A DNA stretch of 64,000 nucleotides from Rufibacter glacialis (GTDB taxonomy: Bacteria; Bacteroidota; Bacteroidia; Cytophagales; Hymenobacteraceae). Every line of letters begins with the position of its first letter. Position 1 is the first letter of the stretch. Of the stretch, positions 27,598 through 50,101 are shown piece after piece. The notes beneath the pieces were generated by a model. That model searched no databases. It saw nothing but the letters and a program-made list of their open reading frames with translations, and was not told the DNA's origin. The stretch spans positions 372,001 through 436,000 of the forward strand of contig NZ_VKKZ01000022.1 in the NCBI RefSeq assembly GCF_008271745.1, read 5' to 3'. The position numbers and the translations under genes are program-made.

Positions 27598-28725
27598 TTA
27601 TTTCTTCTGTACCGCTTGCACAATGGCCTGCAGAGCGGGCTTGGGCTGGTAGTTGCGGTCGAAGATCAAGGGGTAGCTGGTGCGGCCTTTGATGGGCCAG
27701 TTGTTCAGCCAGGAGTCCGCGTCAGTCACGCCCCAGAACGTTACCCGGCTAATCTTGTCGCGGTGCTTGTGGAACAGGGCGAAGATCTCAGCGTAACGCT
27801 TGGTCAGTTTCTGCTGCACCTCATTGGGCAAGCCGGTGGTGTATATGTTGTATTTCTGGTCAAACTCAAAGGTAGCGTCAATGTCGGCGCCCTGGCGGTT
27901 GCTGGGGTTGGGCAGCACGTCAATGTCCAGTTCGGTGATCATTACCTTGCCCAAAGCCGAGAATTTCACAATGCTTTCCTCAATCTGCTGGATGGAAGGG
28001 TGCTCCAGGCCATAGTGCCCCTGCATACCGATGCCGTCTACTTTAAGTCCCTTGGCTTGCAGGCTTTTGACCAGCTTTACGGCTCCATCGGCTTTGGCCG
28101 GCTTCCACATGTTGTAGTCATTGTAGTACAGCTCTGCTTTGGGGTCTGCTTTGCGGGCAGTTTCAAAGGCTTTGGCCAAATACTCTTCACCGGTGATCTG
28201 GTGCCATTTGCTTTTGCGGAGAGTTCCGTCATCGTTCAGGGCCTCGTTTACCACGTCCCAGCCGTTGATCTGGCCTTTGTACCTGCCTGCCACCGTCATG
28301 ATGTGTTCTTCCATGCGCTTGAGCAGTTTGTCTTTGGTGACCGGTTGGCCGGGTTGGCTTTCAAAAACCCAGTCTGGGGTTTGTTGGTGCCACACCAGGG
28401 TGTGCCCAATGATGAACTGCTTGTGTTTCTTGCCCAGCGCCACGTAATCATCGGCGGGTTTGAAGTTGTATTTGTCTGGCTGCGGGTGCACGTTGCCCCA
28501 CTTGAGCAGGTTCTCTGGGGTGATGGTATTGAAGTGCTGGGCAATGATAGCCTCGGCCTTGGGGTCTTTGCCCGATGCCTGTTGGTAGTTGAGGGCCGCG
28601 CCCACGTAGAACGCGTCTTTGAAGACGGTCTTGAGCGAAGGTTCTGCCCGGCGGGTCTGGCTGGACACGCAGGCCAGAGAGGCAAGGGCCACGCTGGCTG
28701 CTAACAAAATTCTACTTTTTCTCAT
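27598..28725 (-). CDS. Endo-1,4-beta-xylanase, GH10
   Basis: Cuts the xylan backbone. 375 residues with a lipoprotein signal (LAASVALASLACVSS), so probably outer-membrane or periplasmic. GH10 landmarks in order: FYVGAALNY, HFNTITPENLLKWGNVHP, FIIGHTLVWHQQTPDW, acid/base Glu in WDVVNEALND, GMQGHYGLEHPS, nucleophile Glu in MITELDIDVLP, and VTFWGVTDADSWL. Full length, single domain, no binding module. Reads in the same direction as the SDR, GH67 and LacI genes, 160 bases after the SDR. Confidence 0.96.
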   Translation of the reverse strand: MRKSRILLAASVALASLACVSSQTRRAEPSLKTVFKDAFYVGAALNYQQASGKDPKAEAIIAQHFNTITPENLLKWGNVHPQPDKYNFKPADDYVALGKKHKQFIIGHTLVWHQQTPDWVFESQPGQPVTKDKLLKRMEEHIMTVAGRYKGQINGWDVVNEALNDDGTLRKSKWHQITGEEYLAKAFETARKADPKAELYYNDYNMWKPAKADGAVKLVKSLQAKGLKVDGIGMQGHYGLEHPSIQQIEESIVKFSALGKVMITELDIDVLPNPSNRQGADIDATFEFDQKYNIYTTGLPNEVQQKLTKRYAEIFALFHKHRDKISRVTFWGVTDADSWLNNWPIKGRTSYPLIFDRNYQPKPALQAIVQAVQKK

Positions 28726-28885: not shown

Positions 28886-29653
28886 TTAGAACCCGATGGA
28901 GTTTCCGCCGTCTACGGGTAACACGGTGCCGGTTACATAGCGGGCGCCTTCGGTGGCGAAGAAGTACACGGAGTCAGCCACATCTGCCGGCGTCCCGAAT
29001 TTGCCCATGGGCGTGCGGCCCAAGGCTTTGTTTTTGCGTTCAGGGTCACTGTCCATGGCTTTCGCCGACATGGCGGTGGCGATGAAACCCGGGGCCACGC
29101 AATTGATCCGGAGGCCCAGCGGCGACAGTTCAGTGGCCATGGCCCGGGTCATGCCCTCAATGGCAGATTTGGAGGCGGTGTAGGCAATCACCTTCGGGAT
29201 GCCGTACTGGGAGGCCATGGAACTGATGTTCACAATGGCGCCTTCGCCGTAGGGAAGCATCACCTTGACCACTTCGCGGCTCAGAGAGAAGACAGCGCTC
29301 ACGTTGGTGAGCAGAATGCGCTGGAAATCCTCGTCTGTCACCTCCACCAGAGGTTTTTTCATGTTCACACCGGCGTTGTTCACCAGAATGTCCAGTTGGC
29401 CGTGCTCCTGCGCCAGCCGTTCCACCAGAGCCGGAATCCCGGCCAGATGGTTCAAGTCAAAGGCTTCGGTGATGCAGAGCGGACCAAAACGCTCCCTGGT
29501 TGCCTGTAGTTTCTGTTCATCCCGGCCAATGACAATGGTTTTGATGTTTTCCTGGATGAATTTCTCCACAATTGCCAAGCCTATTCCTGAGGCGCCCCCG
29601 GTGACAATGGCAGTTCTGGTAGTTGGAAGCGGAGATGGGGTTATGTTTTGCAT
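28886..29653 (-). CDS. SDR-family oxidoreductase, possible D-fructuronate reductase
   Basis: NAD(P)-dependent short-chain dehydrogenase of 255 residues. Cofactor motif TGGASGIGLAI, NNAGVN, catalytic Ser in VNISSMASQYG and YTASKSAIEGM supplying Tyr and Lys, and a C-terminal VLPVDGGNSIGF ending typical of the classical family. Tightly packed (11 bases) behind the alpha-glucuronidase and near a mannonate dehydratase gene, with no classical UxuB in view. I infer it may reduce fructuronate to mannonate, as SDR proteins do in other uronate loci; sequence alone only supports the SDR family. Confidence 0.85.
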   Translation of the reverse strand: MQNITPSPLPTTRTAIVTGGASGIGLAIVEKFIQENIKTIVIGRDEQKLQATRERFGPLCITEAFDLNHLAGIPALVERLAQEHGQLDILVNNAGVNMKKPLVEVTDEDFQRILLTNVSAVFSLSREVVKVMLPYGEGAIVNISSMASQYGIPKVIAYTASKSAIEGMTRAMATELSPLGLRINCVAPGFIATAMSAKAMDSDPERKNKALGRTPMGKFGTPADVADSVYFFATEGARYVTGTVLPVDGGNSIGF

Positions 29654-29663
29654 GGTGTCTGGG

Positions 29664-31829
29664 TTAAATGCCCGGGGAGAATTTGGGCTCTATTTTCATA
29701 TACTCCTCTAAAGTGCCCTGCGGCTTCTCCAGTTCTTGGGGAATGGGTCTTTTGGAAAACGTCTGGAAGTACAGCAGGCAGGCGTCTCGCCACCAGCGGG
29801 CATCTTTCTCCTGGATGGCCAGGTATTGCTTCACTTGGTGGTGCCGTTCCTTGTCCACCTGACCCGCCAGGGAATCCCAGGTTTTCTGCATGGTGCGCAC
29901 CGAGTCCACGCCCCCGGAGTAGCGGTAGCAGAGCTCGTCCCAAAGGGTGCGGCCAGATTTGGTTTTAGCGTCCCAAGCTACGTGGTGGAACCAAAGCAGG
30001 AACTCTTCTGGGCAGGTAGCCGGGTTTTGCCACTGGGCCTGCACCTCGGGTGCGTACTGCGACAAAGCGTTACTGCCGGTTTTGGTGCGGTCAAAACCTA
30101 TCCCTTTCTCGGTGGCGCGGTGGTAGTATACGGAGGTCCAGTCTGCCCGGGGTTTGTCTTTGATCCAGGGACCCGGACCGTAATGGTGGCTCCAGCCCAT
30201 GAGGTGGTGCAGCCCCATGGGGGTCATGTAGTTCACCACCGCTTCGCGGGAACCCATCATCATTTTCCTAACGGCGGGTACCAAGGAAGGTGAGCTGGAG
30301 AAGGTCATCTTGATCCACTCGTCGGCGATGGCTTCTGAGGTAAGGTCATAATCCCAGGCCAACCGCCCGAAGGCATACCAGTTGGCTTGCCCAAACGGGT
30401 GGCTGGTCCAATTGATGTCATTGCCAATGTTGGCCACGCCGGCCATGCCGGAAATGGGGTGGCGGTCCAGGCTGCCGTCCACCACCTTGGCTACGGTAGA
30501 GCCTTTTCCTTTGGCGTAGGTGTCTGCTTCCAGGGTTTCTTTGAACATAGGGGCCAGATAGGCCAGGTGGGTGCCCTGCCCCAGGTATTCCTGCGTGATC
30601 TGGAACTCCATCATGAGCGGCGTCTTGGGCATGGCGCCAAATAAGGGGTGAAACGGCTCGCGGGGCTGGAAGTCAATGGCCCCGTTTTTCACCTGCACCA
30701 TCACATTTCCCTTGAAGGTGCCGTCCAGCGGTTTGAACTCGGTATAGGCTTGTTTGTGCCGGTCATCCGGTACGTTGTTGTCATAGACGAAGGCCCGCCA
30801 CATCACAATGCCACCTTTGGGCGCCAACACCTCGGCCAGCATGTTGGCCCCGTCAGCGTGGGACCGGTTGTAATTCTGTGGGCCCGGTTGCCCTTCAGAG
30901 TTCGCCTTTACCGTAAAACCGCCAAAATCAGGCACGTAGGTGTAAATCTCGTTTACTTTGTTTTTCCACCACTCCTTTACCTCGGGGTTCAGGGGATCAG
31001 CGGTTTTGAGTTTGCCTAATTCAATGGGGGAACTGAAACGGGCCGTCAGGTAGACTTTGATGCCATAGGGCCGGAAAACGTCTGCCAGAGCCTTGACCTT
31101 TTTCAGGTACTCAGGCGTAAGCACGAGGGAGTTGGCGTTCACGTTGGTCAATACCGTGCCGTTGATCCCAATGGAGGCATTGGCGCGGGCATAGTCTAAG
31201 TAGCGCTGGTCTATGTAGTCAGGGAGTTTGTGCCAGTCCCAGATGGAAAAGCCGGCGTACCCGCGCTCCACGGTGCGGTCCAGGTTGTCCCAGTGGTTCA
31301 GGATGCGGAGCTTGGTTTTGGGGCTGTTGCTAACCTTCAGGTTTTGGATGTCCTGTTGGGTCTTCAGCAGCCGGAGGAGATGGAAGGTGCCGTACAGCAC
31401 CCCTTTTTCGGTGTTGGCCGCAATAACGGTATAGCTTTTTCCCTTGTGTTTTTGCGAAAGAAGCAGGAAACCCTCTTGTCCCACTTCCTTTAACTGAGGT
31501 TCCAGAGAGAGGTCTTTGACGAGGGAAGAGGTAGCCGGCGTGCCCGCCACTAAGGCAGCTTTTTTCGAAACCGCGCCTGAAACGGCCACCTTAGAACCCA
31601 GCAACCCGGTCAGAGCCATCTCTAATTCCTCTTTCACCACCGTGAGGGTAGGGGAGGCGCCCTGCACCACCACCTGTCCCAGGCTTTTCCTGTACTGTTG
31701 CAGCCGTTCTTTGTCCTGCACCAGATCATACCGTTGCCATAGCCGGTAGCCATCTTCGGCTTGGGCGTTTCCCTGGCAAAAGAACAGAAACAGCAAAAAA
31801 GCGAAACGGAAGAGGTGGGTCTTGCTCAT
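29664..31829 (-). CDS. Alpha-glucuronidase, GH67
   Basis: Removes (4-O-methyl)glucuronic acid from the non-reducing end of xylo-oligosaccharides. 721 residues with signal peptide ending QGNAQAEDG. The N-terminal GH67N domain is followed by the catalytic TIM barrel with NHWDNLDRTVERGYAGFS, GGFTVKANSEGQPGP, VQVKNGAIDFQPREPFHPLFG (catalytic Asp region) and MMEFQITQEYLGQGTHL (catalytic Glu), then the C-terminal helical GH67C domain with GLHHLMGWSHHYGPGPW. Full length. First enzyme gene after the LacI regulator on this strand. Confidence 0.96.
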   Translation of the reverse strand: MSKTHLFRFAFLLFLFFCQGNAQAEDGYRLWQRYDLVQDKERLQQYRKSLGQVVVQGASPTLTVVKEELEMALTGLLGSKVAVSGAVSKKAALVAGTPATSSLVKDLSLEPQLKEVGQEGFLLLSQKHKGKSYTVIAANTEKGVLYGTFHLLRLLKTQQDIQNLKVSNSPKTKLRILNHWDNLDRTVERGYAGFSIWDWHKLPDYIDQRYLDYARANASIGINGTVLTNVNANSLVLTPEYLKKVKALADVFRPYGIKVYLTARFSSPIELGKLKTADPLNPEVKEWWKNKVNEIYTYVPDFGGFTVKANSEGQPGPQNYNRSHADGANMLAEVLAPKGGIVMWRAFVYDNNVPDDRHKQAYTEFKPLDGTFKGNVMVQVKNGAIDFQPREPFHPLFGAMPKTPLMMEFQITQEYLGQGTHLAYLAPMFKETLEADTYAKGKGSTVAKVVDGSLDRHPISGMAGVANIGNDINWTSHPFGQANWYAFGRLAWDYDLTSEAIADEWIKMTFSSSPSLVPAVRKMMMGSREAVVNYMTPMGLHHLMGWSHHYGPGPWIKDKPRADWTSVYYHRATEKGIGFDRTKTGSNALSQYAPEVQAQWQNPATCPEEFLLWFHHVAWDAKTKSGRTLWDELCYRYSGGVDSVRTMQKTWDSLAGQVDKERHHQVKQYLAIQEKDARWWRDACLLYFQTFSKRPIPQELEKPQGTLEEYMKIEPKFSPGI

Positions 31830-31985: not shown

Positions 31986-33041
31986 TTAGGAAAGCACTGC
32001 TTTCTTTTTGGTGTTGCCTACCTTGCTTCGCACCGAGGATTCCCGGATGATCAACTCGGATCTAAGGTTGATGGTGTTGCTGGGAATCCCTTCCACGGTG
32101 CCGGACATCTGCATGAGCAGTACCCTTACGGCTACCTCGCCCATTTCCTGGCCGGGGTAATTGACCGTGGTCAGGTTGGGTTCCACCACCCGGGAGATGG
32201 CGTCATTGTTGAAACCTGCTATAGCAATGTCTTTAGGCACTGAGACACCCGCTTGTTTCAGGGTTTTAAGACAGCTTACCGCACAAGTGTCATTTGACAC
32301 GAACACGCCATCTGGCATAGGATTCATGGCCAGGATCTTTCTGGCCGCCTCCTCGCCCGCCTCCTCACTCAGGTTGTTGATCATGATGTTACGGTCATCA
32401 TACGGCAGGTCATGGTCCACCAAGGCATATTTATAGCCTTTGAGTCGGTCTGAGTACACGTTCCTGTTCAGGTTACCGGTAATATGGACGATGTTGGTGC
32501 AGCCTTGCTCAATCAGGTGCGAGGTGGCCTGGTAAGCGGCCTGCAGGTTGTCTATCACAATGCTGGTGCAGCTTGGGTGCTCGGCCACCCGGTCATAGAA
32601 AATCACGGGAATGCCTTTGTTGATGATACTCTGGAAGTGGTCCAGATTCTCGGTTTCATACGACAAGGACACCAGCACGCCGTCTACCCGGCTGTTGAAC
32701 ATGGTTTTGGCGTTGGCGATCTCCTTCTGCAGGGTCTCCAGGGACTGGCTGATGATGAGGTTGTAGCCCGCGTCGTTGGCTACTTTCTCCATGCCAGACA
32801 GCACCGAGGACATGAAAGGGCTATTGAGGCGGGGGACAATCACCCCGATGGTATTGGTATGTTGCTTTCTTAAGTTGCTGGCGAACAGGTTGGAACGGTA
32901 GCCCATGCGGGCGGCCGCCTCAGAGATCCTTTGTTTTGTCTTCTGGTTTACGGCAGGATGGTCATTCAAAGCCCGGCTTACCGTGGTAGGCGACAGGTTC
33001 AACTCCCTTGCAATATCATATATGGTGATGTCTTTCTCCAT
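31986..33041 (-). CDS. LacI-family regulator of the glucuronoxylan locus
   Basis: Transcriptional regulator of 351 residues from the ATG at 33041; the frame extends to a TTG at 33065 but MEKDITIYDIARELNLS is the family start. The HTH (ITIYDIARELNLSPTTVSRALNDHPAVN) and hinge (RKQHTNTIGVIVPRL) precede a periplasmic-binding-protein-like sensor. Divergent from SusC, co-directional with GH67, SDR and GH10. Palindromes at 33071 and 33342 are its likely operators, the first adjoining its own -7 box. The inducer is probably a xylo-oligosaccharide or uronate intermediate (inference). Confidence 0.94.
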   Translation of the reverse strand: MEKDITIYDIARELNLSPTTVSRALNDHPAVNQKTKQRISEAAARMGYRSNLFASNLRKQHTNTIGVIVPRLNSPFMSSVLSGMEKVANDAGYNLIISQSLETLQKEIANAKTMFNSRVDGVLVSLSYETENLDHFQSIINKGIPVIFYDRVAEHPSCTSIVIDNLQAAYQATSHLIEQGCTNIVHITGNLNRNVYSDRLKGYKYALVDHDLPYDDRNIMINNLSEEAGEEAARKILAMNPMPDGVFVSNDTCAVSCLKTLKQAGVSVPKDIAIAGFNNDAISRVVEPNLTTVNYPGQEMGEVAVRVLLMQMSGTVEGIPSNTINLRSELIIRESSVRSKVGNTKKKAVLS

Positions 33042-33062: not shown

Positions 33063-33070
33063 CAAATGTA
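33063..33070 (-). promoter_or_regulatory. Candidate -7 box of the LacI gene
   Basis: Complement reads TACATTTG, an exact TAnnTTTG match, 21 bases before the ATG at 33041 and directly next to operator 33071-33084, which would occupy the -7/-33 spacer. Confidence 0.6.
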
Positions 33071-33084
33071 TGAAATCGGTTTCA
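33071..33084. promoter_or_regulatory. LacI-type operator 1
   Basis: TGAAATCGGTTTCA: palindromic arms TGAAA / TTTCA with a central CG step, the usual LacI-family form. Lies 30 bases before the regulator start, implying autoregulation. Confidence 0.65.
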
Positions 33085-33341
33085 ATAATAATAGCGTTTT
33101 ATGCATTTCAGGCCTTCCAAGCCCTTTCCTTGATTTGGTGCCAAGGTATATTCAAATGTAGCGAATTCTGACTTGAAATAGGATGAAGTCCTGGTAAATC
33201 ATGACATAAATAGGTTTAACGCCATGTTTTGGGTAGAACTGGTGTGGTTTTTCAAAGTTATACAACTTAGTTGAGGGTAGTTTGATTCAAATTTTTCAAA
33301 AATACTTGCTCATTATGATGGTATTTTTTTGAAATAACTTA

Positions 33342-33355
33342 TGAAATCGGTTGTA
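33342..33355. promoter_or_regulatory. LacI-type operator 2 (SusC side)
   Basis: TGAAATCGGTTGTA repeats the first ten bases of operator 1 exactly. It lies between a TTTG (33328-33331) and AATATTTG (33355-33362), a near match to the Bacteroidota promoter on the plus strand, about 360 bases before susC. Confidence 0.55.
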
Positions 33356-33721
33356 ATATTTGAAAATAATATCCAAGTTTGTAAAGGCAGGAAGGGAAAC
33401 CAATCAGTTCCTCCTTATAGAGCATCGGAAGACGAAAAGGAAGACACTTCCATAATCCTTCTGGCAGCCTAAAGTAGGAGGGAGGTTCTTCTGCCTTGTG
33501 AAGAAGATTCAAGCCAAGGCTCTTTCTAAGATAGGAGGGTTTTTCTTGGGGAAGCTTCCTTTAAGTGTTCCTTCTGGAAAGTACCCTGAATCTTGAGGTC
33601 CAGGGAAGACCCAGAGAAAAGCCCCGCTGAATTCTTTGATCGTGGTGCTTGGCAGGGGACCTGCTTCTAACACACCTATTGCTTATAACCGCTTACCTCT
33701 ACCAACTTAACAAACTTATGT

Positions 33722-36700
33722 ATGAAAGGTAACAGTACCCAAAATCCAAGATCACTGATTTCGCTTCTCCGGAAGCCAGAAATCTTGAAACTAGCTATGT
33801 TGCTGGTGGTCTCTCTGCTGATGGGTGTACAAGCCATGGCGCAGAGCCTTACTGTAAAAGGGAGAGTCACTGATTCCTCAGGAGGAGGCTTGCCCGGGGT
33901 AACCGTGCTTCTCAAAGGAACCACCACCGCCGCACCTACTGATGTAGAAGGAAATTACTCCATCACAGTCCCTAACGGCACCGGTACCCTGGTCTACTCT
34001 TTCATTGGATATGTCACCCAAGAGGTAGCCATCAACAACAGAAGTACGGTGAATGTCACCCTACCCACCGACCAGCAGACCATTGAAGAGGTAGTAGTGG
34101 TGGGGTATGGTACCCAGAGCGCCGAGGCAGTTACCGGTTCGGTTGCTTCCATCAAAGGAGAGGAACTGCGGGAGGTACCTGCGGCCAATATTTCCCAGGC
34201 TCTGCAGGGGCGTTTGCCAGGCGTGGAGTTCTCGCAATCCTCCTCTCAGCCGGGTGCTACCATGCAAATCAGAATCCGGGGGGCACGTTCCCTCAATGCC
34301 AGCAATGACCCATTGGTGGTACTAGACGGAATTCCTTTCGCCGGTTCAATCGGGGACATCAACCCAAATGATATTACCAGTATTGATATCTTGAAAGATG
34401 CCTCTGCCACCGCCATTTACGGTTCACGCGGTGCCAACGGCGTGATTTTGGTCACCACCAACCGGGGAAGACAAGGGCAGGAAGCCAAACTGAGCTACAA
34501 CAGCTTTGTAGGCATAAAAGATGTTTTTGCCAAATACCCTATGATGAACGGTGCTGAGTTTGTTGCCCTTCGCAAGGCGGCCCGTATTTACAACAACGCC
34601 GTGGATGAAGCGGATGATGTGGACACGGATTGGCAAGACCTGCTGTACAAAAAAGGCATGGTCAACAGTCATGATCTGGGTGTAGCCGGAGGTACTGAAA
34701 AAGGGAGCTATAATTTCAATGCCGGGTACTACAATGAGAAAGGGGTAATCCCCACCCAACAATACACCCGTTATTCGGTTCGTGGTTCCCTTGACCAGGG
34801 GGTAGGGAAATACCTCCGGTTGGGCTTCACCACTTATAATACCTATAGTGTTTCTGAAGGTTCAAACGTAGGTCTTTACGGCATTTTGAGCATGTCGCCT
34901 ATTGCCAATCCCTATAAGGCAGACGGCACCTGGAAAAGAACCGTGAAGATGCCACTTGATGAGCAATGGGTGTTTTCAAGAGACATTGTAGAAGATTTAA
35001 GTGACAGCTGGTTAAGCGAAACCAGAGCGTTCGGAACCTACAACACCATGTATGGGGAGATCCAAATCCCTGGCATAGAAGGTTTAAAGTATCGTGCCAA
35101 CCTTGGCATTAATTACCGTCAGAGCAACGGTGGGGCCTATACTGCCCAGGGCATTGGCAGTTCCACTGCCACCACTCCCTCCACTGCTTCGGTTAGTAAC
35201 TCCCATACCACTGACTGGACCATTGAAAACCTGTTGACCTATGACCGCACCATTGCTGAGAAGCACATGATTAACGTGGTTGGTTTATACTCTGCCTCAG
35301 AAAGCAAATTCAACAGATCACGCATGGCGGCCAGAGATATTCCTTCTGATGCTTTCCAGTTCTACAACCTGGGTTTGGCTGCCGGTGAAATCACTGTAGC
35401 CCCTGGTGACCAGCAATACTGGAAGAGTGGATTGATGTCCTGGATGGGCCGCGTGATGTACTCCTATGATGACCGCTACATGTTGACGGCCACTGTACGG
35501 TCAGACGGTTCTTCCAGACTGGCTCCAGGACACAAATGGCATACCTACCCGGCCATTTCAGTTGGTTGGAACATTGCCCGCGAGTCCTTTATGGAAGGGG
35601 TGAGCCTGGTGAACATGATGAAACTCCGGGCGGGTTATGGGAAAACCTCCAACCAGTCCATTGATCCCTACGCTACCCTTGGTCGCCTGAGCACCAGACC
35701 TTATAACTTTGGTCCTGATAACTACCAAACCGGGCTGTTTATAACCGAACTGCCCAACCCTAACCTAGGATGGGAATTCTCTGAAACCTTCAATTACGGG
35801 TTAGACTTCGCTCTTTTAAATAACCGTCTTTCCGGAACGGTGGAGTACTATGTCACCAAAACCAATGATATCTTATTGAGAGTAGGTCTGCCGGCTACCA
35901 CAGGGGTGGGGAGCTACGTAGCCAACATTGGCAAAACCCAGAACAAGGGGGTGGAACTCTCCCTTAATGGCGTGATCCTGGACAACCTGAACGGCTGGAC
36001 CTGGGAAGCTGGCTTCAACATGTATGCCAACCGCAACAAACTGGTAGCCCTGGCCGGCGGCCAACAGCGCGATGAAGGGAACTGGTGGTTTGTGGGCCAT
36101 CCGATCAATGTGATCTATGACTACGAGAAAGTAGGCCTATGGCAAGCCGAAGACCCCTATAGAAATATTCTGGAACCAGGAACAGATGACCAGATAGTAG
36201 GTACCATCAAGGTGAAATATACCGGCGGGTTCAATCCTGATGGAACCCCTGTTAGAAGAATAGGGCCTGACGATCGCCAGATCATGGACGTGAATCCTGA
36301 TTTCCAGGGAGGCTTCAATACCCGGGTTTCTTTCAAAGGGTTTGACTTAAGCGCAGTGGGGGCCTTCCAGGGCGGTGGTCTTCTCAATAGCACGCTGTAT
36401 GGGTCGTCTGGGTACCTCAATATGATGACCGGCCGCCGGGGGAACGTAAAGGTAGACTACTGGACGCCAGAAAATACCGATGCCAAATATCCTAACCCTG
36501 CCGGGAAAAGAAGCGGCGATAACCCTAACTACGGCAGTACCTTGGGGTACTTTGATGCCTCTTATCTGAAAATACGCACTATTTCCCTGGGGTATAACTT
36601 TGATAACAACAACTGGTTGAAAGGGGCTGGTTTTGATAGACTGCGGGTGTACGCCACGGCCCAGAACCCATTCGTGTTTTTCTCGCCTTATAACAAAGAA

Positions 36701-36844
36701 TCAGGCATGGACCCTGAAACCAACTCCTTCGGTAATGAGAATGCGGCAGTGCCCTTGTCTGATAACCTGAGACGTTTGTTGACTTTAGGTACAAACTCAC
36801 CTGCCACACGCGGTTTCCTGGTTGGTTTAAATGTTACTTTCTAA
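33722..36844 (+). CDS. SusC/RagA-family TonB-linked outer-membrane transporter
   Basis: Outer-membrane importer of xylo-oligosaccharides (substrate inferred from neighbours), 1040 residues. Signal region ends VQAMAQS; then a carboxypeptidase-regulatory-like domain (LTVKGRVTDSSGGGLPGVTVLLKG), the SusC TonB box/linker EEVVVVGYGTQ, the plug with LQGRLPGVEFSQSSSQPG and DASATAIYGSRGANGVILVTT, and a barrel with the SusC-type C terminus. It works with the SusD protein that starts 11 bases after its stop. A long 5' leader (about 360 bases from the proposed promoter) is unusual. Confidence 0.96.
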   Translation: MKGNSTQNPRSLISLLRKPEILKLAMLLVVSLLMGVQAMAQSLTVKGRVTDSSGGGLPGVTVLLKGTTTAAPTDVEGNYSITVPNGTGTLVYSFIGYVTQEVAINNRSTVNVTLPTDQQTIEEVVVVGYGTQSAEAVTGSVASIKGEELREVPAANISQALQGRLPGVEFSQSSSQPGATMQIRIRGARSLNASNDPLVVLDGIPFAGSIGDINPNDITSIDILKDASATAIYGSRGANGVILVTTNRGRQGQEAKLSYNSFVGIKDVFAKYPMMNGAEFVALRKAARIYNNAVDEADDVDTDWQDLLYKKGMVNSHDLGVAGGTEKGSYNFNAGYYNEKGVIPTQQYTRYSVRGSLDQGVGKYLRLGFTTYNTYSVSEGSNVGLYGILSMSPIANPYKADGTWKRTVKMPLDEQWVFSRDIVEDLSDSWLSETRAFGTYNTMYGEIQIPGIEGLKYRANLGINYRQSNGGAYTAQGIGSSTATTPSTASVSNSHTTDWTIENLLTYDRTIAEKHMINVVGLYSASESKFNRSRMAARDIPSDAFQFYNLGLAAGEITVAPGDQQYWKSGLMSWMGRVMYSYDDRYMLTATVRSDGSSRLAPGHKWHTYPAISVGWNIARESFMEGVSLVNMMKLRAGYGKTSNQSIDPYATLGRLSTRPYNFGPDNYQTGLFITELPNPNLGWEFSETFNYGLDFALLNNRLSGTVEYYVTKTNDILLRVGLPATTGVGSYVANIGKTQNKGVELSLNGVILDNLNGWTWEAGFNMYANRNKLVALAGGQQRDEGNWWFVGHPINVIYDYEKVGLWQAEDPYRNILEPGTDDQIVGTIKVKYTGGFNPDGTPVRRIGPDDRQIMDVNPDFQGGFNTRVSFKGFDLSAVGAFQGGGLLNSTLYGSSGYLNMMTGRRGNVKVDYWTPENTDAKYPNPAGKRSGDNPNYGSTLGYFDASYLKIRTISLGYNFDNNNWLKGAGFDRLRVYATAQNPFVFFSPYNKESGMDPETNSFGNENAAVPLSDNLRRLLTLGTNSPATRGFLVGLNVTF

Positions 36845-36854
36845 AAAGAATTCA

Positions 36855-38813
36855 ATGAAACGATATCTTAATATAAAAGCCTTTGTAGGAGCAGCCGTGA
36901 TCTCCATGTTTTCAGTGGGGTGCTCAGATATTCTGGAAGAGGAGCCACGTAGCCTTTATACCCCCGGATTTTTCCAAACGGAAAGGGGTATCAACGGCGG
37001 AATTACCTCTATGTATGCTCACTTGCGTTACATTTACGGGCAAGCCTACTATTACAACGCAACCCTGACCGGTACTGATGAAGTGACCTATGCCAGTGAT
37101 GCCGACGAGAACTTTAGAGTCATGGACCTTTCTAACCAAGGGGCCCTGACTTCTACCAACAGCCGGGCCGATGTTCTGTGGGGAGCTGCCTTCCCTAACA
37201 TCAACACCGCCAGCGGGGTCATTGAGAATGCCACCACCATGGGCACTATTTCGCCAGCGCTTATTGCTGAAGCCAGATTCTTCCGCGCCTTTGATTATTT
37301 TCAACTGGTGCAAACGTTTGGGGGAGTGCCTCTGGATCTAGGCAATGGGGAATTGAAGTATAACCCCAATCCAGCGAGAACCTCTGTGCGTAACACGGTA
37401 CCAGAGGTATATACCAAAGCCATCTTCCCGGATCTCCTGCAGGCCATCACCGACTTGCCAGAAAGAGGCCGTGTAACTGGTGGTGCTACTAAAACACTGG
37501 CCCGTCTTTATTTGGCAAAAGCTTACCTGACTTACGGTTGGTGGCTCCAAAACCCGAACAATATCCCTACTTATCCTGCCACTCCGCGCACAGACCCTAA
37601 CGGAAAGGATGCGCAGTGGTATTTCCAACAAGCCTATGATATAGCAGTCACGGCTATCAACAATCCAGGTCCTTTTGGGTTGCAACCTACTTACTATGAT
37701 GTGAACGTGGGCTCAAACGACAGAAACTCGGAGATTCTTTTGTACGCGGACCATACCGAGAAAAGCGAGTTTTACAATGGAGGTAGCCTTACCTTCGGGA
37801 GTGGCGGTGCCCCGGATAACTTTGCGGGCTGGATGATGACCTGGAACTATACCAACATCAGGAGCTATACCAACGCCAACGGGACGGGACCTTTTAGCTC
37901 TGTCCAACGGGAAGCTTCTCAAGATTTAGGACGTCCCTGGACCCGTATGGCGCCCACCATCAACGTGATCCAGAACACATTCGCCGACAAAACAAATGAT
38001 TCCCGTTACGACGGAACCTTTACCACCGTTTACCGGGCCAACTGGCCAAAAGCTGGCGGTACCGTAGCCCCGGTGCTGTATAACGCCAACCTTTTGCCAG
38101 TACGGCCGGGTGAACCAGTCTTGACTTTCCTGAATGAAGAACCAGCTACTGCTATTGCTTACCCGTCTGGGGCAGGTAGAAGCAACATTGGAGCTGGAGA
38201 GGTACCCGGAAGAGCGGATTATGTGATATCGCCCAATGGCATAAGCCGGATCGTGTATCCTAAGCTTTGGAAACTTGGTACCTACCGAACCGACAATGGC
38301 ACCGGATTAGGGCAGCCGAACGCGGGCAGCACCCGTCCGTTCAACATTGCCAAATTCTCTGAACTGTACTTCATCGCCGCCGAGGCTGCCGTGAAGGGGG
38401 CCACTACCCAGGCCGGTAAATCCGCCAGAGACCTGATCAACGTGCTCCGGGCCAGGGCCGGTAAGTGGCGTTTTGACAACAACGGGAATATGGCTAAAGT
38501 AGCCGACAATAGCGCTGCTATGGTAGCGGCTACCCCGGCCACCATTGACATCAACTACATTCTGGCAGAACGTTCGCGTGAGTTCTATGGCGAAGGGTAC
38601 CGTTGGTTTGATTTGGTACGCACGCAAAAGTGGAATGAACTCGCCACCACCTACCGCATTGCCGGAAGTACCTACGGAAACCATACCCCTGTAACAGTCA
38701 CTCGTACCATTAAACCGGAACACTACCTGCGCCCTATTCCGCAAAGCCAGTTAGACGCCATGAACATGACCGCCGCAGAAAAATCCAACTATCAGAACCC
38801 AGGCTATAACTAA
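36855..38813 (+). CDS. SusD/RagB-family nutrient-binding lipoprotein
   Basis: Surface lid protein of the SusCD complex, about 652 residues. ATG at 36855 gives a lipoprotein signal (MKRYLNIKAFVGAAVISMFSVGC followed by acidic SDILEEEP); an ATG at 36831 overlaps the susC stop and is less likely. Typical features: LIAEARFFRAFDYFQLVQTFGGVPL, TKTLARLYLAKAYL TPR-like helices, and the C-terminal ILAERSREFYGEGYRWFDLVR and LRPIPQSQLDAM. Longer than the average SusD because of a large central insertion (about 250-430). Confidence 0.96.
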   Translation: MKRYLNIKAFVGAAVISMFSVGCSDILEEEPRSLYTPGFFQTERGINGGITSMYAHLRYIYGQAYYYNATLTGTDEVTYASDADENFRVMDLSNQGALTSTNSRADVLWGAAFPNINTASGVIENATTMGTISPALIAEARFFRAFDYFQLVQTFGGVPLDLGNGELKYNPNPARTSVRNTVPEVYTKAIFPDLLQAITDLPERGRVTGGATKTLARLYLAKAYLTYGWWLQNPNNIPTYPATPRTDPNGKDAQWYFQQAYDIAVTAINNPGPFGLQPTYYDVNVGSNDRNSEILLYADHTEKSEFYNGGSLTFGSGGAPDNFAGWMMTWNYTNIRSYTNANGTGPFSSVQREASQDLGRPWTRMAPTINVIQNTFADKTNDSRYDGTFTTVYRANWPKAGGTVAPVLYNANLLPVRPGEPVLTFLNEEPATAIAYPSGAGRSNIGAGEVPGRADYVISPNGISRIVYPKLWKLGTYRTDNGTGLGQPNAGSTRPFNIAKFSELYFIAAEAAVKGATTQAGKSARDLINVLRARAGKWRFDNNGNMAKVADNSAAMVAATPATIDINYILAERSREFYGEGYRWFDLVRTQKWNELATTYRIAGSTYGNHTPVTVTRTIKPEHYLRPIPQSQLDAMNMTAAEKSNYQNPGYN

Positions 38814-38820: not shown

Positions 38821-38868
38821 CCTCCTGCCTGCTTGTCCTTTGCGGCAGACAGGCAGGAGGCTTTTTTT
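38821..38868 (+). terminator. Terminator after susCD
   Basis: Arms CCTCCTGCCTG / CAGGCAGGAGG followed by C and a run of seven T, starting seven bases after the susD stop codon. Confidence 0.85.
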
Positions 38869-39175: not shown

Positions 39176-40348
39176 ATGTCATTACTGCAAAGTTGGAGAT
39201 GGTACGGCCCCAATGACCCCGTTACCCTGCAAGATGTGAAACAGGCCGGTGCCACGGGTATTGTAAGTGCTTTACACCATATCCCGCACGGGGAAATGTG
39301 GCCCTTGGCCGAAATCCAGGAGCGCAAGCGCATTATTGAGGAAGCCGGGCTTACCTGGGCTGTGGTAGAAAGCGTACCGGTGCACGAGTCCATCAAAACC
39401 CGGGCCGCAGATTGTGAGCTGTTTTTAGAAAACTACCGCCAATCGCTCCGCAACCTGGCAGCCTGTGGCCTGCACATCATCTGCTACAATTTCATGCCCG
39501 TGCTGGACTGGACCAGAACCAACCTGGCCTATGAACTGAAGAACGGGGCCAAAGCCCTGTACTTTGACTGGGCAGACTTGGCGGTCTTTGATCTCTTTAT
39601 CCTGAAAAGGGAAGGCGCAGCCCAGGACTATGCCCCACCCGTGGTGCAACTGGCCCAGGAAAGAAGTAAGACGTATTCCCAGGAAAAACTGGAGCAGCTG
39701 AGCGAGATCATCCGGATGGGCGTACCCATGGAAGGATTCATCACCCTGGAGCACCTCACCCAGAGCATCAGCATCTACAAAGAGATTGGCCACGCCGGCC
39801 TGCGGGAGAACCTGGCTTATTTCCTTGAGTCGATTATGGGCGTTTGTGAGGAAAACGGCCTGAAAATGACCATCCATCCAGATGACCCCCCGTACCCCAT
39901 TTTAGGCCTGCCCCGCATTGCGTCTAACAAAGAAGACCTGCTCTTCATCCTGAAAAGGGTAGACCGCGCACCCAACGGCATCTGTTTCTGCACGGGTTCC
40001 TTAGGGGCTGGCGGCCATAACAACCCCGTTGAAATCCTGAAAGCGGTAGGGGAGCGGGTGTACTTCGCGCACCTGCGCAATGTGTTGAAAAACCACCAGG
40101 GCAACTTCTATGAATCTGACCACCTGGCCGGCGACGTGGACATGTATGGGGTGATGCGGGAGTTGGTCAGAATCAACCAAACCCGGCCAGAACCCATTCC
40201 CTTCCGGCCCGACCACGGGCACCAGATGCTGGATGACCTGCACAAGGTGACCAACCCTGGGTATTCGGCCATTGGTCGCCTGCGGGGTTTAGCGGAGCTG
40301 AGAGGCCTGGAAATGGGCATTGAGCGCACCTTATACCCTGCCCCTTAA
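39176..40348 (+). CDS. uxuA: Mannonate dehydratase UxuA
   Basis: Dehydrates D-mannonate to 2-keto-3-deoxygluconate in glucuronate breakdown. 390 residues, cytoplasmic, full length. Recognised by the N terminus LLQSWRWYGPNDPVTLQDVKQAGATGIVSALHHIPHGE, then YNFMPVLDWTRTNL, MTIHPDDPPYPILGLPRI, CTGSLGAGGHNNP (with metal ligands), HLRNVLKN and FRPDHGHQMLDD. Its presence shows that glucuronate released by GH67 and GH115 is meant to be consumed. Separated from susD by a terminator, so it likely has its own promoter. Confidence 0.96.
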   Translation: MSLLQSWRWYGPNDPVTLQDVKQAGATGIVSALHHIPHGEMWPLAEIQERKRIIEEAGLTWAVVESVPVHESIKTRAADCELFLENYRQSLRNLAACGLHIICYNFMPVLDWTRTNLAYELKNGAKALYFDWADLAVFDLFILKREGAAQDYAPPVVQLAQERSKTYSQEKLEQLSEIIRMGVPMEGFITLEHLTQSISIYKEIGHAGLRENLAYFLESIMGVCEENGLKMTIHPDDPPYPILGLPRIASNKEDLLFILKRVDRAPNGICFCTGSLGAGGHNNPVEILKAVGERVYFAHLRNVLKNHQGNFYESDHLAGDVDMYGVMRELVRINQTRPEPIPFRPDHGHQMLDDLHKVTNPGYSAIGRLRGLAELRGLEMGIERTLYPAP

Positions 40349-40515: not shown

Positions 40516-43446
40516 ATGCGTACTCTTCCTCAAAACCATGCCCGCAGAATGAACCAGTTGTTACGCAGTTGGCAAAAAATCCTATTCCTTTTTATAGGAC
40601 TTTCCATCACGCCGGCCGCCTTCGCGCTGGATGATGTTTCCTATGTCTTTTTCCAAAAGAAGGCCAATTCCTTCGCGCTCGCCGAGGGCGGGAAAAGCGC
40701 CCCGTTCTACATCAGTGACCGGGATCATGCGGGAGTGATCAGGGCCTTGCGCGATTTCCAGGCTGATCTCAAGAAAGTGACCAACGCTGAACCGTCCTTG
40801 ACGGTGGGCGGAAAGATGCCGAAAGCCCGCACCATGGTGTTGGTAGGCACCTTGGGCCAAAGCCCGCTCATTGACCAACTGATGAAAAGCAAGAAACTGG
40901 ATCTGAAAGAGCTGGCCGGTAAGTGGGAAACGTTTGCAGTGCAGGTGGTGAAGAAGCCCATGAAAGGCGTAGAAGAGGCCCTCGTGATTGTGGGCAGCGA
41001 CAAACGCGGTACCATCTACGGCATTTATGACGTGTCGGCTCAGATTGGCGTCTCGCCTTGGTATTGGTGGGCTGATGTGCCGGTCAAGCCCCAGGCGAAC
41101 GTGTACGTGGCCGAAGGCCGCCACACCAAAGGCACCCCCGCCGTGAAGTACCGGGGCATCTTCATCAATGACGAGGCTCCGGCGCTCTCCAACTGGGCCA
41201 GGGAGCAGTTTGGCGGCTTCAACCACAAGTTCTACGAGAAGGTGTTTGAGCTGATTTTGCGCATGAAGGGCAATTACCTGTGGCCCGCCATGTGGGGCAG
41301 CGCCTTCAACGACGATGACAAAATTAACCCGCAGGTAGCTGATCTGTATGGCATTGTGATGGGCACCTCTCACCACGAACCCCTCAGTCGCGCCCACGAT
41401 GAGTGGCGGCGCTACGGGTCCGGCCCCTGGAACTACAGCACCAACCCAGAGAAACTGCGCGAGTTCTGGAAAGGCGGCATCCAACGCATGAACGGGTACG
41501 AAAGCATTGTGACCGTGGGCATGCGCGGCGACGGCGATGAACCCATGAGCGAGGAAAGCAACATCGGGCTGCTGGAGCGCATTGTGGCCGACCAACGCAA
41601 GATCATCTCTGAGGTGACGGGCAAAGATGCCTCCCAAACGCCGCAGATTTGGGCCCTGTACAAAGAGGTGCAGGACTACTATGACAAAGGCATGCGCGTG
41701 CCCGATGATGTGACCCTTTTGCTAGCCGATGACAACTGGGGGAACATCCGTAAACTCCCCAAGGTAGGCGAGAAACAGCATTCCGGCGGCTACGGCATCT
41801 ATTACCACTTTGACTACGTGGGCGGTCCCCGGAACTACAAATGGCTCAACACCAATCCTATTGCCCGCGTCTGGGAACAGATGCACCTGGCCTACCAGCA
41901 CAAGGCCGACCGCATCTGGATCGTGAACGTAGGCGATATCAAGCCTATGGAGTTCCCCACCGAGTTTTTCCTGGACTATGCCTGGAACCCGGAAAAATGG
42001 CCTGCTGACCGGCTGGCAGAATACACCAGGCGATGGGCCGAGCGCCAGTTCGGTCCGGAACACGCCCCCGCCATTGCCCACCTCCTGGCCAGATACACCA
42101 AGTTCAACGGCCGCCGCAAACCAGAACTGCTGGCCCCCAACACCTACAGCCATACCAACTACCTGGAGGCTGAGACGGTGGTCAGGGAGTACAACCAACT
42201 GGCCGAAGAGGCGGAGCGGATTGCCAAGGCCTTGCCTGCCCAGTACCGAGACGCCTATTACCAGCTGGTGCTGTTCCCGGTGCAGGCCAGTGCCAACCTC
42301 AATGAATTGCATATCACCACGGGCCGGAACCACTGGTACGCGCAGCAAGGCAGGGCCACCACCAACGACCTAGCGGACCAAGTGAAACGCCTCTTTGACC
42401 GTGATGCCGCCCTCACCCAGGTGTACCACAAAGAAATAGCCGGCGGCAAATGGAACCACATGATGTCGCAGACGCACATCAGTTACACGTACTGGCAACA
42501 ACCGGAGAAAGATGTCCTGCCGGAGTTGAAGCAGCTTTCTTTGCCGGTTGCGGCTGAGATGGGCGTGGCCCTTAAGGGAACCGACAAATGGTGGCCACAG
42601 GAAAAAGGAGAAGCCGTTTTACCTGAGTTTTCCCCTTTCCAGACCCAAAACCACTACCTGGAGATCTTTAACCGCGGGCAGCAGCCTTTTACGTATTCCA
42701 TTCAGACCGGAGCCCCTTGGCTGAAGGTGTCGCACCCAACTGGTACGGTGGCCAAGGAGCAGCGCGTGGGGGTGACGGTGGATTGGGCCCAGGTTCCGAA
42801 CGGAACCCAAAGGGAACCCCTGACTATCACCAGTTCCACCGGTAAAAAAGTGGTGGTGCAGGCAGTGGTGGTTCATCCAAAAGACCCCAACCTTCGGCAG
42901 TTCAATGGTTTTGTAGAGAGCAACGGCTATATTTCCATGGAAGCGGACCATTTTACCCGCGCGGTAGACGCAAACAACATCCAGTGGAAACGGATCCCGG
43001 ACCTGGGCCGCACGGGATCAGCCATGACCACCTTTCCGGTGACCGCTCCCAGCCAGACACCCGGGTCCGGCAGTCCGCACCTGGCCTATCAGGTGTACCT
43101 GCACCAAGGGGGCGAGGTGAACGTGCAGGTATTCTTATCGCCTACCCTCAACTTCCACAACACGCAGGGCCTGCGCTACGCCATCTCTTTTAATGAGGAG
43201 CCCCCGCAGATCATCAACATCCACGCAAACAAGACAGAAGGGGAGTGGAACCGCAACGTGGCCAACAACATCAACCTCACCATCTCCAGGCATCAACTCA
43301 AGAAGCCAGGGGAGCAGGTGCTTAAATTCTGGATGGTAGACTCAGGCGTGGTGTTGCAGAAGATCGTGATTGACGCCGGTGGCCTGAAACCCAGCTACCT
43401 GGGGCCTCCGGAAAGCATGAATCCAGCGGCCAAGCCAGTAGAATAA
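40516..43446 (+). CDS. Xylan alpha-1,2-glucuronidase, GH115
   Basis: Removes (methyl)glucuronic acid from internal and terminal xylose units of polymeric xylan, complementing GH67. 976 residues with signal peptide (KILFLFIGLSITPAAFA). ATG 40516 or ATG 40549 could be used. GH115 landmarks: KYRGIFINDEAPALSNWAREQFGGFNHKFYEKVFELILRMKGNYLWPAMW, GTSHHEPL, MRGDGDEPM, LLLADDNWGNIRKLP, and HFDYVGGPRNYKWLNT. A beta-sandwich from about 730 (LEIFNRGQQPFTYSIQTGAPWL) and the C-terminal GH115 accessory domain complete it. Confidence 0.94.
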   Translation: MRTLPQNHARRMNQLLRSWQKILFLFIGLSITPAAFALDDVSYVFFQKKANSFALAEGGKSAPFYISDRDHAGVIRALRDFQADLKKVTNAEPSLTVGGKMPKARTMVLVGTLGQSPLIDQLMKSKKLDLKELAGKWETFAVQVVKKPMKGVEEALVIVGSDKRGTIYGIYDVSAQIGVSPWYWWADVPVKPQANVYVAEGRHTKGTPAVKYRGIFINDEAPALSNWAREQFGGFNHKFYEKVFELILRMKGNYLWPAMWGSAFNDDDKINPQVADLYGIVMGTSHHEPLSRAHDEWRRYGSGPWNYSTNPEKLREFWKGGIQRMNGYESIVTVGMRGDGDEPMSEESNIGLLERIVADQRKIISEVTGKDASQTPQIWALYKEVQDYYDKGMRVPDDVTLLLADDNWGNIRKLPKVGEKQHSGGYGIYYHFDYVGGPRNYKWLNTNPIARVWEQMHLAYQHKADRIWIVNVGDIKPMEFPTEFFLDYAWNPEKWPADRLAEYTRRWAERQFGPEHAPAIAHLLARYTKFNGRRKPELLAPNTYSHTNYLEAETVVREYNQLAEEAERIAKALPAQYRDAYYQLVLFPVQASANLNELHITTGRNHWYAQQGRATTNDLADQVKRLFDRDAALTQVYHKEIAGGKWNHMMSQTHISYTYWQQPEKDVLPELKQLSLPVAAEMGVALKGTDKWWPQEKGEAVLPEFSPFQTQNHYLEIFNRGQQPFTYSIQTGAPWLKVSHPTGTVAKEQRVGVTVDWAQVPNGTQREPLTITSSTGKKVVVQAVVVHPKDPNLRQFNGFVESNGYISMEADHFTRAVDANNIQWKRIPDLGRTGSAMTTFPVTAPSQTPGSGSPHLAYQVYLHQGGEVNVQVFLSPTLNFHNTQGLRYAISFNEEPPQIINIHANKTEGEWNRNVANNINLTISRHQLKKPGEQVLKFWMVDSGVVLQKIVIDAGGLKPSYLGPPESMNPAAKPVE

Positions 43447-43854: not shown

Positions 43855-45600
43855 ATGTTAAATAAAATAAATCTTAGGTCTACAGGTTACCTGCGGCGAA
43901 CGCTATCTCTGGTGGTGGTGGTACTTCTGGCGCTGTTTGGGGCTGTTTCGGTTAAGGCGCAGCAAAAACAGGAGTTCCAGAACCCGATCTTCCCGGGTTT
44001 TTACCCTGACCCCAGCATCTGCCGGGTGGGGGAGGATTATTACCTGATCACCTCCACGTTCGCCTATTTTCCGGGTGTGCCCATTTTTCATAGCAAAGAC
44101 TTGGTGAACTGGACGCAGATTGGGAACATCCTGGACCGTCCAGAGCAGCTGAACCTGGCGGGGCATGACGTTTCCCGGGGCATTTTTGCGCCCACTATCT
44201 CCTACAAAGACGGCACGTTCTACATGGTGACCACCCTTATTGACAGAGGTGGCAACTTCGTGGTGACGGCCACCAATCCGGCCGGGCCCTGGTCTAACCC
44301 GCACTGGCTTCCCAACGTGAGCGGCATTGATCCCTCGCTCTTCCATGATGAAGACGGGAAATCGTATATCATGTACAATTCAGAGGCCCCGGATAATAAA
44401 CCCTTGTACGACGGGCACCGCACCATCCGGATGTTTGAGTTCGACCTGAAGACCATGAAAACCGTGGGGCCGCAGCATTTGCTGGTGAACGGGGGCGTGG
44501 ATCTGTCTAAGAAACCGGTCTGGATTGAGGGGCCGCACATCTACAAAGTGAACGGGTATTACTACCTCATGGCCGCCGAAGGGGGTACCAGCGTCAATCA
44601 TTCTGAAGTGATCCTGCGCAGCAAAACGGTTACCGGACCGTATGTGCCCTATGAGAAGAACCCCATCCTGACCCAGCGCCACCTACCTGCCAACCGGCCC
44701 AACCCTGTTTCGGCCACCGGCCACGCGGACCTGGTGCAGACCCAGAAGGGCGAATGGTGGGCAATCTTCCTGGCCACGCGTCCTTACGATGGTCCCGGTG
44801 ATTACTACAACACCGGCCGCGAGACCTTTCTGGCGCCGGTGACCTGGCAAGACGGCTGGCCCATCATCAATGCCGACCATGACCTGGTGCAGTATTCGTA
44901 CCCAGTACCCAACCTGCCGGCCCAGATGACCCCTGCTTTCCCGCTCACAGGCAACTTCACCTACCGGGAAGACTTTGTATCTGGCACCTTGCCTATGTAC
45001 TGGCTACAGCTTAGAACCCCTGGTACCACCTGGTACAGTTTAAGCCAACCCAAAGGAAAGCTGACGCTGCAGGTGCGGCCCGAGAGTTTCACGGAAAAAG
45101 TGAATGTCTCTTTCCTGGCCCGGCGGCAGCAACACCTCACGGGAAGCGCCAGCACCCAACTGGAGTTCCAACCCGAAAAAGCAAACGAGTTTGCCGGCCT
45201 GGTCGCTTTCCAGAACAGCCAGCACCACTACGCCCTGGGCAAGACCAAAAAAGGCCAGGAGGCGGTGGTACAGCTCTTGAAAGCTGACCAAACGGTGCTG
45301 GCTGAAATTGCCTTGTCTAAAAAAGAAAGCCGGAAACCGCTTTTCCTTAAAATTGAATTCAACCGAGACACCTACGCTTTTTATTACAGCACCCAAAAAG
45401 GCAAATGGCGCCTGCTCAAAGGAGACGTAGACGGCAAATACCTCAGTACTCGTGTAGCCGGGGGCTTTGTAGGCGTGACCCTGGGCATGTACGCTACCTC
45501 CCATGGCCAGCCTTCCCAGAACAAAGCCGCTTTTGATTGGTTTGACTATGAGGGCAAGGATGCTACCTATGCACGACCTGAGGTGTCACAAAAGCAATAG
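43855..45600 (+). CDS. Glycoside hydrolase family 43 (beta-xylosidase/arabinofuranosidase)
   Basis: Releases xylose and/or arabinose from xylo-oligosaccharides. 581 residues with signal peptide ending VSVKAQQ. Five-blade propeller with the catalytic base Asp in NPIFPGFYPDPSICRV, the pKa-modulating Asp in GIDPSLFHDEDGK and the acid Glu in WIEGPHIYKVNGYYYL. The C-terminal beta-sandwich (about 365-570, FTYREDFVSGTLPMYWLQLRTPG) is the GH43-associated domain that closes the active site. Full length. Convergent with nothing and 180 bases before the aldolase gene. Confidence 0.94.
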   Translation: MLNKINLRSTGYLRRTLSLVVVVLLALFGAVSVKAQQKQEFQNPIFPGFYPDPSICRVGEDYYLITSTFAYFPGVPIFHSKDLVNWTQIGNILDRPEQLNLAGHDVSRGIFAPTISYKDGTFYMVTTLIDRGGNFVVTATNPAGPWSNPHWLPNVSGIDPSLFHDEDGKSYIMYNSEAPDNKPLYDGHRTIRMFEFDLKTMKTVGPQHLLVNGGVDLSKKPVWIEGPHIYKVNGYYYLMAAEGGTSVNHSEVILRSKTVTGPYVPYEKNPILTQRHLPANRPNPVSATGHADLVQTQKGEWWAIFLATRPYDGPGDYYNTGRETFLAPVTWQDGWPIINADHDLVQYSYPVPNLPAQMTPAFPLTGNFTYREDFVSGTLPMYWLQLRTPGTTWYSLSQPKGKLTLQVRPESFTEKVNVSFLARRQQHLTGSASTQLEFQPEKANEFAGLVAFQNSQHHYALGKTKKGQEAVVQLLKADQTVLAEIALSKKESRKPLFLKIEFNRDTYAFYYSTQKGKWRLLKGDVDGKYLSTRVAGGFVGVTLGMYATSHGQPSQNKAAFDWFDYEGKDATYARPEVSQKQ

Positions 45601-45782: not shown

Positions 45783-46457
45783 ATGAAATTTTTCATTGAC
45801 ACAGCCAATCTGGCTCATATCAGAGAAGCCCATGACCTGGGAATCCTGGACGGCGTCACTACCAACCCTTCGCTCATGGCCAAAGAAGGCATCAAAGGCG
45901 AGCAGGCAACTCTAGACCACTACAAAGCCATCTGCGAGATAGTGGACGGTGACATCAGTGCCGAGGTGTTGTCCACAGATTTTGATTCGATGGTGGCCGA
46001 GGGCAAGATTCTGGCGGCCTTGCACCCCAACATTGTGGTGAAGGTTCCCATGATCAAAGACGGTCTCAAGGCCATCAAGTATTTCACTGACAACGGCATC
46101 AAGACCAACTGCACCCTCATTTTCTCTGCGGGACAAGCCATTCTGGCGGCCAAAGCAGGGGCCACTTACGTTTCCCCTTTCCTGGGCCGGGTAGATGACA
46201 TCGGTTGGGACGGGGTGGAACTCATTGCCCAGATCGCCAACATCTTCGCCATCCAGGGCTATGACACCCAGATTCTGGCAGCCTCTATCCGCAGCTCCAT
46301 GCATATAGTCAAATGTGCCGAAGCCGGCGCCCATGTCTGCACCTGTCCGCTGGAGCCTATTTTAGGGCTGCTGAACCACCCGCTCACCGCCAGTGGCCTG
46401 GCCAAATTCGTGGCAGACGCTGAGAAAATGAAAGAGATCATGCAGGAGCAGGCGTAG
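45783..46457 (+). CDS. Transaldolase / fructose-6-phosphate aldolase-like protein
   Basis: Class I aldolase of the small transaldolase (TalC/Fsa) family, 224 residues, cytoplasmic. MKFFIDTANLAHIREAHDLGILDGVTTNPSL is the family start, the Schiff-base Lys is K87 (VVKVPMIKDGLKAIK), and SPFLGRVDDIGWDG and ILAASIRSSMHI follow. In this locus it most likely acts as transaldolase in the pentose-phosphate steps that consume xylulose 5-phosphate made by XylB. Sequence alone does not separate transaldolase from fructose-6-phosphate aldolase activity. Confidence 0.93.
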   Translation: MKFFIDTANLAHIREAHDLGILDGVTTNPSLMAKEGIKGEQATLDHYKAICEIVDGDISAEVLSTDFDSMVAEGKILAALHPNIVVKVPMIKDGLKAIKYFTDNGIKTNCTLIFSAGQAILAAKAGATYVSPFLGRVDDIGWDGVELIAQIANIFAIQGYDTQILAASIRSSMHIVKCAEAGAHVCTCPLEPILGLLNHPLTASGLAKFVADAEKMKEIMQEQA

Positions 46458-50087: not shown

Positions 50088-50101
50088 TGCCAACGTTGGC
50101 A
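50088..50101. promoter_or_regulatory. LacI-type operator before xylBA
   Basis: TGCCAACGTTGGCA, a perfect 14-bp palindrome with central CG as LacI-family operators require. Located in the divergent xylB / regulator intergenic region; its sequence differs from the operators at 33071 and 33342, which fits two separate regulators. Confidence 0.75.

Follow-up and report, generated by a model that had tools for sequence, protein, structure and literature searches.

A LacI-family regulator and its predicted operators at the glucuronoxylan utilization locus of Rufibacter glacialis

Knowledge of PUL regulation comes mostly from gut Bacteroides, in which activators anchored in the membrane predominate. 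A review names HTCS, ECF systems and catabolite repression as the canonical PUL systems (PMC10766802), and work on Bacteroides tabulates xylose under an NrtR-type XylR and assigns PULs to HTCS, SusR-like and ECF systems (PMC3878776, PMC4052901). The same two sources give predicted uronate regulons for the LacI-family proteins UxuR, UxaR, KdgR and UxmR in Bacteroides, and the predicted regulon of ManR, a member of the GntR family, combines a SusC/SusD operon with intracellular sugar metabolism (PMC3878776). For xylan, the legend of Gramella flava PULs that contain aguA (GH67), GH10, GH43 and susC/susD and have xylan-induced genes also lists lacI (PMC5306329), and a 2025 paper mentions in passing beta-1,4-xylan systems with TonB-dependent transporters under LacI or HTCS (PMC12125979). 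No description of the glucuronoxylan regulon considered below was found in the literature searched, which left out most subscription papers.

In Rufibacter glacialis, a LacI-family gene on the minus strand and a susC gene on the plus strand diverge from one intergenic region, and two palindromes in this region, O1 and O2, are probably (about 85%) operators of the adjacent protein, here LacI1, which would repress a glucuronoxylan regulon as its local regulator. The initial annotation regarded LacI control of a SusCD locus as remarkable, on the grounds that other regulator types serve most such loci. Among the 32 susC genes above the cut-off in this genome, a LacI gene lies within 3 kb of three, and one AraC-type and one ECF-type regulator were found within 6 kb; among these three types of neighbour, LacI is thus the most frequent, and a susC under LacI control does not look out of the ordinary for this genome. 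The switch at the glucuronoxylan locus is conserved and ordinary in kind.

The locus and its regulator

The window, i.e. the whole 64-kb stretch of the 5.32 Mb genome that was analysed, contains the features listed in Table 1. The adjacent susC and susD, accompanied by GH67, GH10, GH115, GH43 and UxuA, constitute a SusC/SusD PUL, and this is a glucuronoxylan utilization locus, based on the established family roles of a xylanase, two alpha-glucuronidases, a xylosidase, an importer and steps for glucuronate and xylose. The short-chain dehydrogenase perhaps performs the fructuronate reductase step. Downstream of tal follow xylA, xylB (48523-50004) and a second LacI gene, LacI2 (50384-51403); the perfect palindrome TGCCAACGTTGGCA between xylB and LacI2 (50088-50101, its only exact place in the window) is likely the operator of LacI2, which is divergent from xylBA.

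Table 1. Features of the glucuronoxylan locus (positions in the window)
Feature	Position	Strand	Remarks
GH10 xylanase	27598..28725	-	
Short-chain dehydrogenase (SDR)	28886..29653	-	
GH67 alpha-glucuronidase	29664..31829	-	
LacI1, LacI-family regulator	31986..33041	-	351 aa; PF00356 1.3e-12, PF13377 2.9e-32
-7 box of the lacI promoter, TACATTTG	33063..33070	-	full match to TAnnTTTG
Operator O1 (putative), TGAAATCGGTTTCA	33071..33084	.	lacI side; fills the spacer beside the lacI -7 box
Operator O2 (putative), TGAAATCGGTTGTA	33342..33355	.	susC side
TTG, predicted -33 element of the susC promoter	33351..33353	+	inside O2
CAAGTTTG, predicted -7 box of the susC promoter	33374..33381	+	20 nt after TTG
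SusC/RagA TonB-linked outer membrane protein	33722..36844	+	TIGR04056
SusD-family lipoprotein	36831..38813	+	SusD_RagB
Terminator-like hairpin with T run	38821..38868	+	3' of susD; -29.1 kcal/mol, z -4.1
Second terminator-like hairpin	38990-39024		susD-uxuA gap
UxuA mannonate dehydratase	39176..40348	+	
GH115 alpha-glucuronidase	40516..43446	+	
GH43 beta-xylosidase	43855..45600	+	
Transaldolase / fructose-6-phosphate aldolase family (tal)	45783..46457	+	

LacI1 carries an N-terminal LacI HTH and a periplasmic-binding-protein-like sensor domain, as is typical of the LacI/GalR family. Its likely start codon is the ATG ending at 33041, the same codon being used in most orthologs. No equivalog name above the NCBIfam cut-off was obtained for LacI1, and its nearest solved structures, of the CcpA, PurR and RbsR types, do not settle the ligand.

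Predicted operators and promoters between lacI and susC

The two palindromes reported in the initial annotation are real and lie where it had placed them. They follow a palindromic consensus with a central CG, TGMAAYCGRTTKCA, or its slightly looser form TGMAAYCGRTTKYA. With a PWM built only from other genomes, O1 and O2 were the two top matches of the window (22.7 and 19.9, the next being 8.0), while the maxima in 15 random sequences matched to the window in length (64 kb) and first-order composition ranged from 7.0 to 15.9. A loose search of the window for TGAAATCGGTTNNA with two mismatches gave no enrichment (seven matches vs 5.2 expected), as chance palindromes would; the PWM scores above those of all 15 random sequences contradict such an origin, and conservation in 30 loci already refutes it, leaving its probability practically nil. 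Across the whole genome, the loose consensus was uninformative as well (192 forward vs 173 control matches), and a tighter consensus worked.

The 30 loci are the best 30 regulator matches, the window's own included, from a search of 150 family genomes. A lacI-side site that differs from TGMAAYCGRTTKCA by no more than one base is present in 29/30, and a susC-side site no more than 330 nt from the start codon in 26/30. A palindromic operator with a central CG, kept at the regulator's own promoter in 29/30 loci, is again characteristic of the LacI/GalR family. Alignment of 12 Rufibacter loci showed that the main conserved blocks were both 14-mers and the susC promoter stretch, the remaining DNA having diverged; by eye, the susC leader (roughly 330 nt) showed no conserved element from the -7 region up to the start codon in this alignment. 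The wider listing comprises at least 80 loci with regulators 52-82% identical, from Rufibacter, Pontibacter, Dyadobacter, Spirosoma, Mucilaginibacter, Chitinophagaceae, Zobellia and others. Among 80 listed loci (1.50 Mb), 57 exact sites were found vs none with the reversed pattern, and the genes nearby included relatives of SDR (51), UxuA (43), GH67 (36), GH10 (28), SusC (28) and GH115 (24), counts that include low-identity matches to paralogs.

On the lacI side, the claim that O1 adjoins the regulator's own -7 box was borne out, since TACATTTG lies directly next to O1. In most Rufibacter loci of the alignment, the lacI-side operator abuts TAYATTTG, so that a dimer bound there would extend over the spacer and obstruct the -7 box. 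By eye, no TTG was recognisable as a -33 element at 19-21 nt from this box. The TAnnTTTG type of -7 box has been confirmed in a flavobacterium (PMC9723704). An E. coli-type promoter scan returned 13 promoters vs 12.1 expected, its model not covering the promoters of this phylum.

On the susC side, the initial annotation proposed a near-consensus promoter with the -7 box AATATTTG (33355-33362). This box is poorly kept, with a mean TAnnTTTG match of 3.12/6 over 25 loci vs 4.48 for the downstream box CAAGTTTG, which replaces it as the predicted, conserved -7 box. CAAGTTTG deviates from the consensus at the first base; it starts 19 nt past the last base of O2, and both this distance and the A and TTT of the box are kept in 25/25 promoters. 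These susC promoter columns leave out 5/30 loci without a susC-side operator in this layout (L042, L043, L044, L054, L057), of which L042 has an operator site at -228. A TTG-to--7 distance of 20 nt is within known promoter spacing. As the TTG 20 nt before the conserved box lies inside O2, the operator would cover the -33 element. The arrangement first described, with each operator between -33 and -7, thus fits lacI, where the operator abuts the -7 box although the -33 is weak, and does not fit susC, where O2 overlaps the -33. The operator position corresponding to the G of TTG is G in 25/25 susC-side vs 7/24 lacI-side sites (p 5e-8, with independence overstated as the loci are related), a bias expected if the same base also serves as the -33.

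The pairing of the two sites had also led to a proposal of looping, in which a LacI tetramer or two dimers would loop the intervening DNA and switch importer and enzymes jointly. The distance of 257 bases then given between midpoints is the gap between the site edges, the centre distance being 271 bp. Among 24 locus pairs (L050, lacking a lacI-side site, was also left out), the O1-O2 centre spacing ranges from 158 to 276 bp. The spacings of the 12 Rufibacter loci show no helical phase preference (R 0.30 vs a null median of 0.24), and those of the 12 other loci are clustered (R 0.63 vs a null 95% point of 0.49), five of them being 236-238 bp in related genomes. Most orthologous loci retain both sites, a finding that together with the partial clustering outside Rufibacter would be compatible with a loop; the variable spacing and the missing phase preference in Rufibacter speak against it, as do the geometry of each operator, which blocks its own promoter alone, and the fact that most other regulon sites are single. 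Looping is therefore unlikely, and the spacing lends it no support.

Operator sites across genomes and possible cross-binding

The genome motif search suggested in the initial annotation was productive: TGMAAYCGRTTKYA occurs exactly at four places, before lacI1, susC, a secreted GH10 xylanase and a GH43 gene. The site on contig C2 is 93 nt before the GH10 gene, whose product carries a Por secretion-system sorting tail, and the site on contig C22 is 56 nt before the GH43 gene. Inside the window, no LacI1 operator was found before uxuA, GH115, GH43 or tal (best PWM score below 0), and uxuA-GH115-GH43-tal lies beyond the strong hairpin with a T run, which counts against the LacI1 regulon.

The abundance of exact TGMAAYCGRTTKCA sites follows the regulator. 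Genome group g3 contains a mean of 3.1 sites in 19 genomes with the regulator vs 0.29 in 31 without (Mann-Whitney p 1.6e-9). In g1 (Rufibacter), the mean is 2.9 in 13 genomes with the regulator, a count including G060 with its regulator gene split over two contigs, the reversed-pattern control being 0.23; the three without have 0, 0 and 2. For g4, the numbers are 0, 2, 2 and 1 with the regulator vs 0, 0, 0 and 0 without. Leaving out the R. glacialis genome and the lacI-susC pairs, 57 further sites were collected from other regulator-bearing genomes, 44 of which adjoin genes for SusC (14), GH43 (12), GH9-like proteins (7), CE15 glucuronoyl esterase (3), GH10 (2), GH3, GH2, xylB and uxuA (1 each) or LacI1-like proteins (2). 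Five of the remaining sites are beside unassigned genes and eight inside long ORFs, compared with 6/11 inside ORFs in genomes without the regulator (p 0.007). Cross-locus conservation and this regulon content strongly support the central proposal of the initial annotation, namely that both divergent promoters carry LacI operators through which the enzymes and the importer are controlled jointly.

The regulator and the xylan genes tend to occur in the same genomes, a GH43 gene being present in 35/36 genomes with the regulator vs 4/38 without, so the presence/absence comparison is confounded. In a gene-matched control, an operator (score >=18) was present in 16/30 GH43 upstream regions with the regulator vs 0/4 without (p 0.11), a small comparison from which 5/35 GH43 loci were left out.

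The GH43 sites show, by eye, a layout similar to that of susC (TTG, ~21 nt, TATNTTCA), and at the GH9-like genes the operator is ~21 nt before the ATG. The GH9-like proteins (~820 aa) occur in Rufibacter and Pontibacter relatives (L116, L119, L124, L133, L138, L144, L151) with the operator conserved, and the two that were scanned match Pfam CelD_N and, weakly, GH9. The operator positions at lacI, susC, GH43 and GH9-like genes are all blocking positions.

The overlap of O2 with the -33 at a strictly fixed position, together with the off-consensus first base of the susC -7 box, would also suit a LacI1 that activates susC from a class II-like position over the -33 instead of repressing it. O1 abutting the lacI -7 box and the operator close to the ATG of GH9-like genes are both blocking positions, and LacI proteins are mostly repressors; activation is accordingly very unlikely, and repression is the reading retained.

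The genome encodes seven LacI proteins, and a paralog of LacI1 might in principle be the main binder of O1 and O2. The locus on contig C24 (L077, contig position about 102533-102546) comprises divergent LacI and susC genes with kduI/kduD-like genes, named from reading the translation, and has a near-identical operator, CGCAACCGATTGCA, before its susC; this one-mismatch relative of the motif makes cross-binding possible. The C24 and O1/O2 loci together suggest that uronate LacI switches form a related family. Furthermore, genome G051 has no close LacI1 ortholog, yet a site lies between its LacI2 ortholog and xylB. Against binding by the C24 regulator or the xylAB-side LacI2 instead of the adjacent product, the site is kept at LacI1's own promoter in 29/30 loci, and the LacI2 intergenic region has a different perfect palindrome, as noted above. 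The third divergent LacI-susC pair, on contig C22 (L292, contig position about 110273), likewise has a perfect palindrome of its own between the genes, GGAAATCGATTTCC. Binding mainly by a paralog is thus very unlikely, and LacI1 remains the favoured binder of O1 and O2. In L129 (G051) and L125 (G063), TGAAACCGGTTTCA is inside a 313-codon ORF at the same relative place and is therefore probably a coding coincidence, not an operator.

Proposed switch and comparison with known systems

The analysis shows site conservation, regulator co-occurrence, regulon content and promoter geometry; DNA binding, a repressing instead of an activating role and the inducer are inferred. Most likely, LacI1 controls a small glucuronoxylan regulon by promoter blocking. 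Without inducer, a LacI1 dimer on O1 would block the lacI -7 box and lead to autorepression of lacI, and occupancy of O1 would also repress GH67-SDR-GH10, probably by read-through. A dimer on O2 would cover the -33 element of the susCD promoter, and single-operator promoters elsewhere, in this genome those of the secreted GH10 and the GH43 gene, would be repressed as well. LacI1 would be released once a glucuronate- or xylo-derived sugar from glucuronoxylan breakdown is present in the cytoplasm.

The balance of probability leans towards a broader role, in which LacI-family proteins of this kind are master repressors of glucuronoxylan use in Cytophagales, Chitinophagales, Sphingobacteriales and some Flavobacteriaceae. 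Genes for xylanases, glucuronoyl esterases, glucuronidases, importers and sugar-acid use at scattered places would then form one regulon, and the fused operator and -33 at susC would have the same bases read by repressor and RNA polymerase. If true, PUL control by soluble repressors instead of membrane sensors may be common outside gut Bacteroidota. A predictable 14-bp operator would mark the glucuronoxylan-digestion genes of an environmental bacterium, including those far from the locus, and would allow the annotation of unknown CAZymes such as the GH9-like genes.

Among described systems, the Gramella flava xylan PULs resemble the Rufibacter locus in having lacI beside GH67, GH10, GH43 and susC/susD, whereas the passages on them (PMC5306329) contain no account of an operator, a regulon or a test of the regulator. 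The Bacteroides proteins UxuR, UxaR, KdgR and UxmR are, like LacI1, LacI-family regulators of Bacteroidota tied to the catabolism of glucuronate and other uronates, but are presented in the parts of the sources considered as regulators of monosaccharide pathways. ManR shares with LacI1 the character of a cytoplasmic one-component regulator with a SusC/SusD operon as predicted target, while protein family, substrate and motif are all different in the account given. Finally, hybrid two-component, SusR and ECF/anti-sigma systems also control SusC/D and CAZyme genes (PMC10766802, PMC3878776); as portrayed in these passages, they employ membrane or periplasmic sensing and activation, whereas the Rufibacter locus would be governed by a soluble LacI protein.
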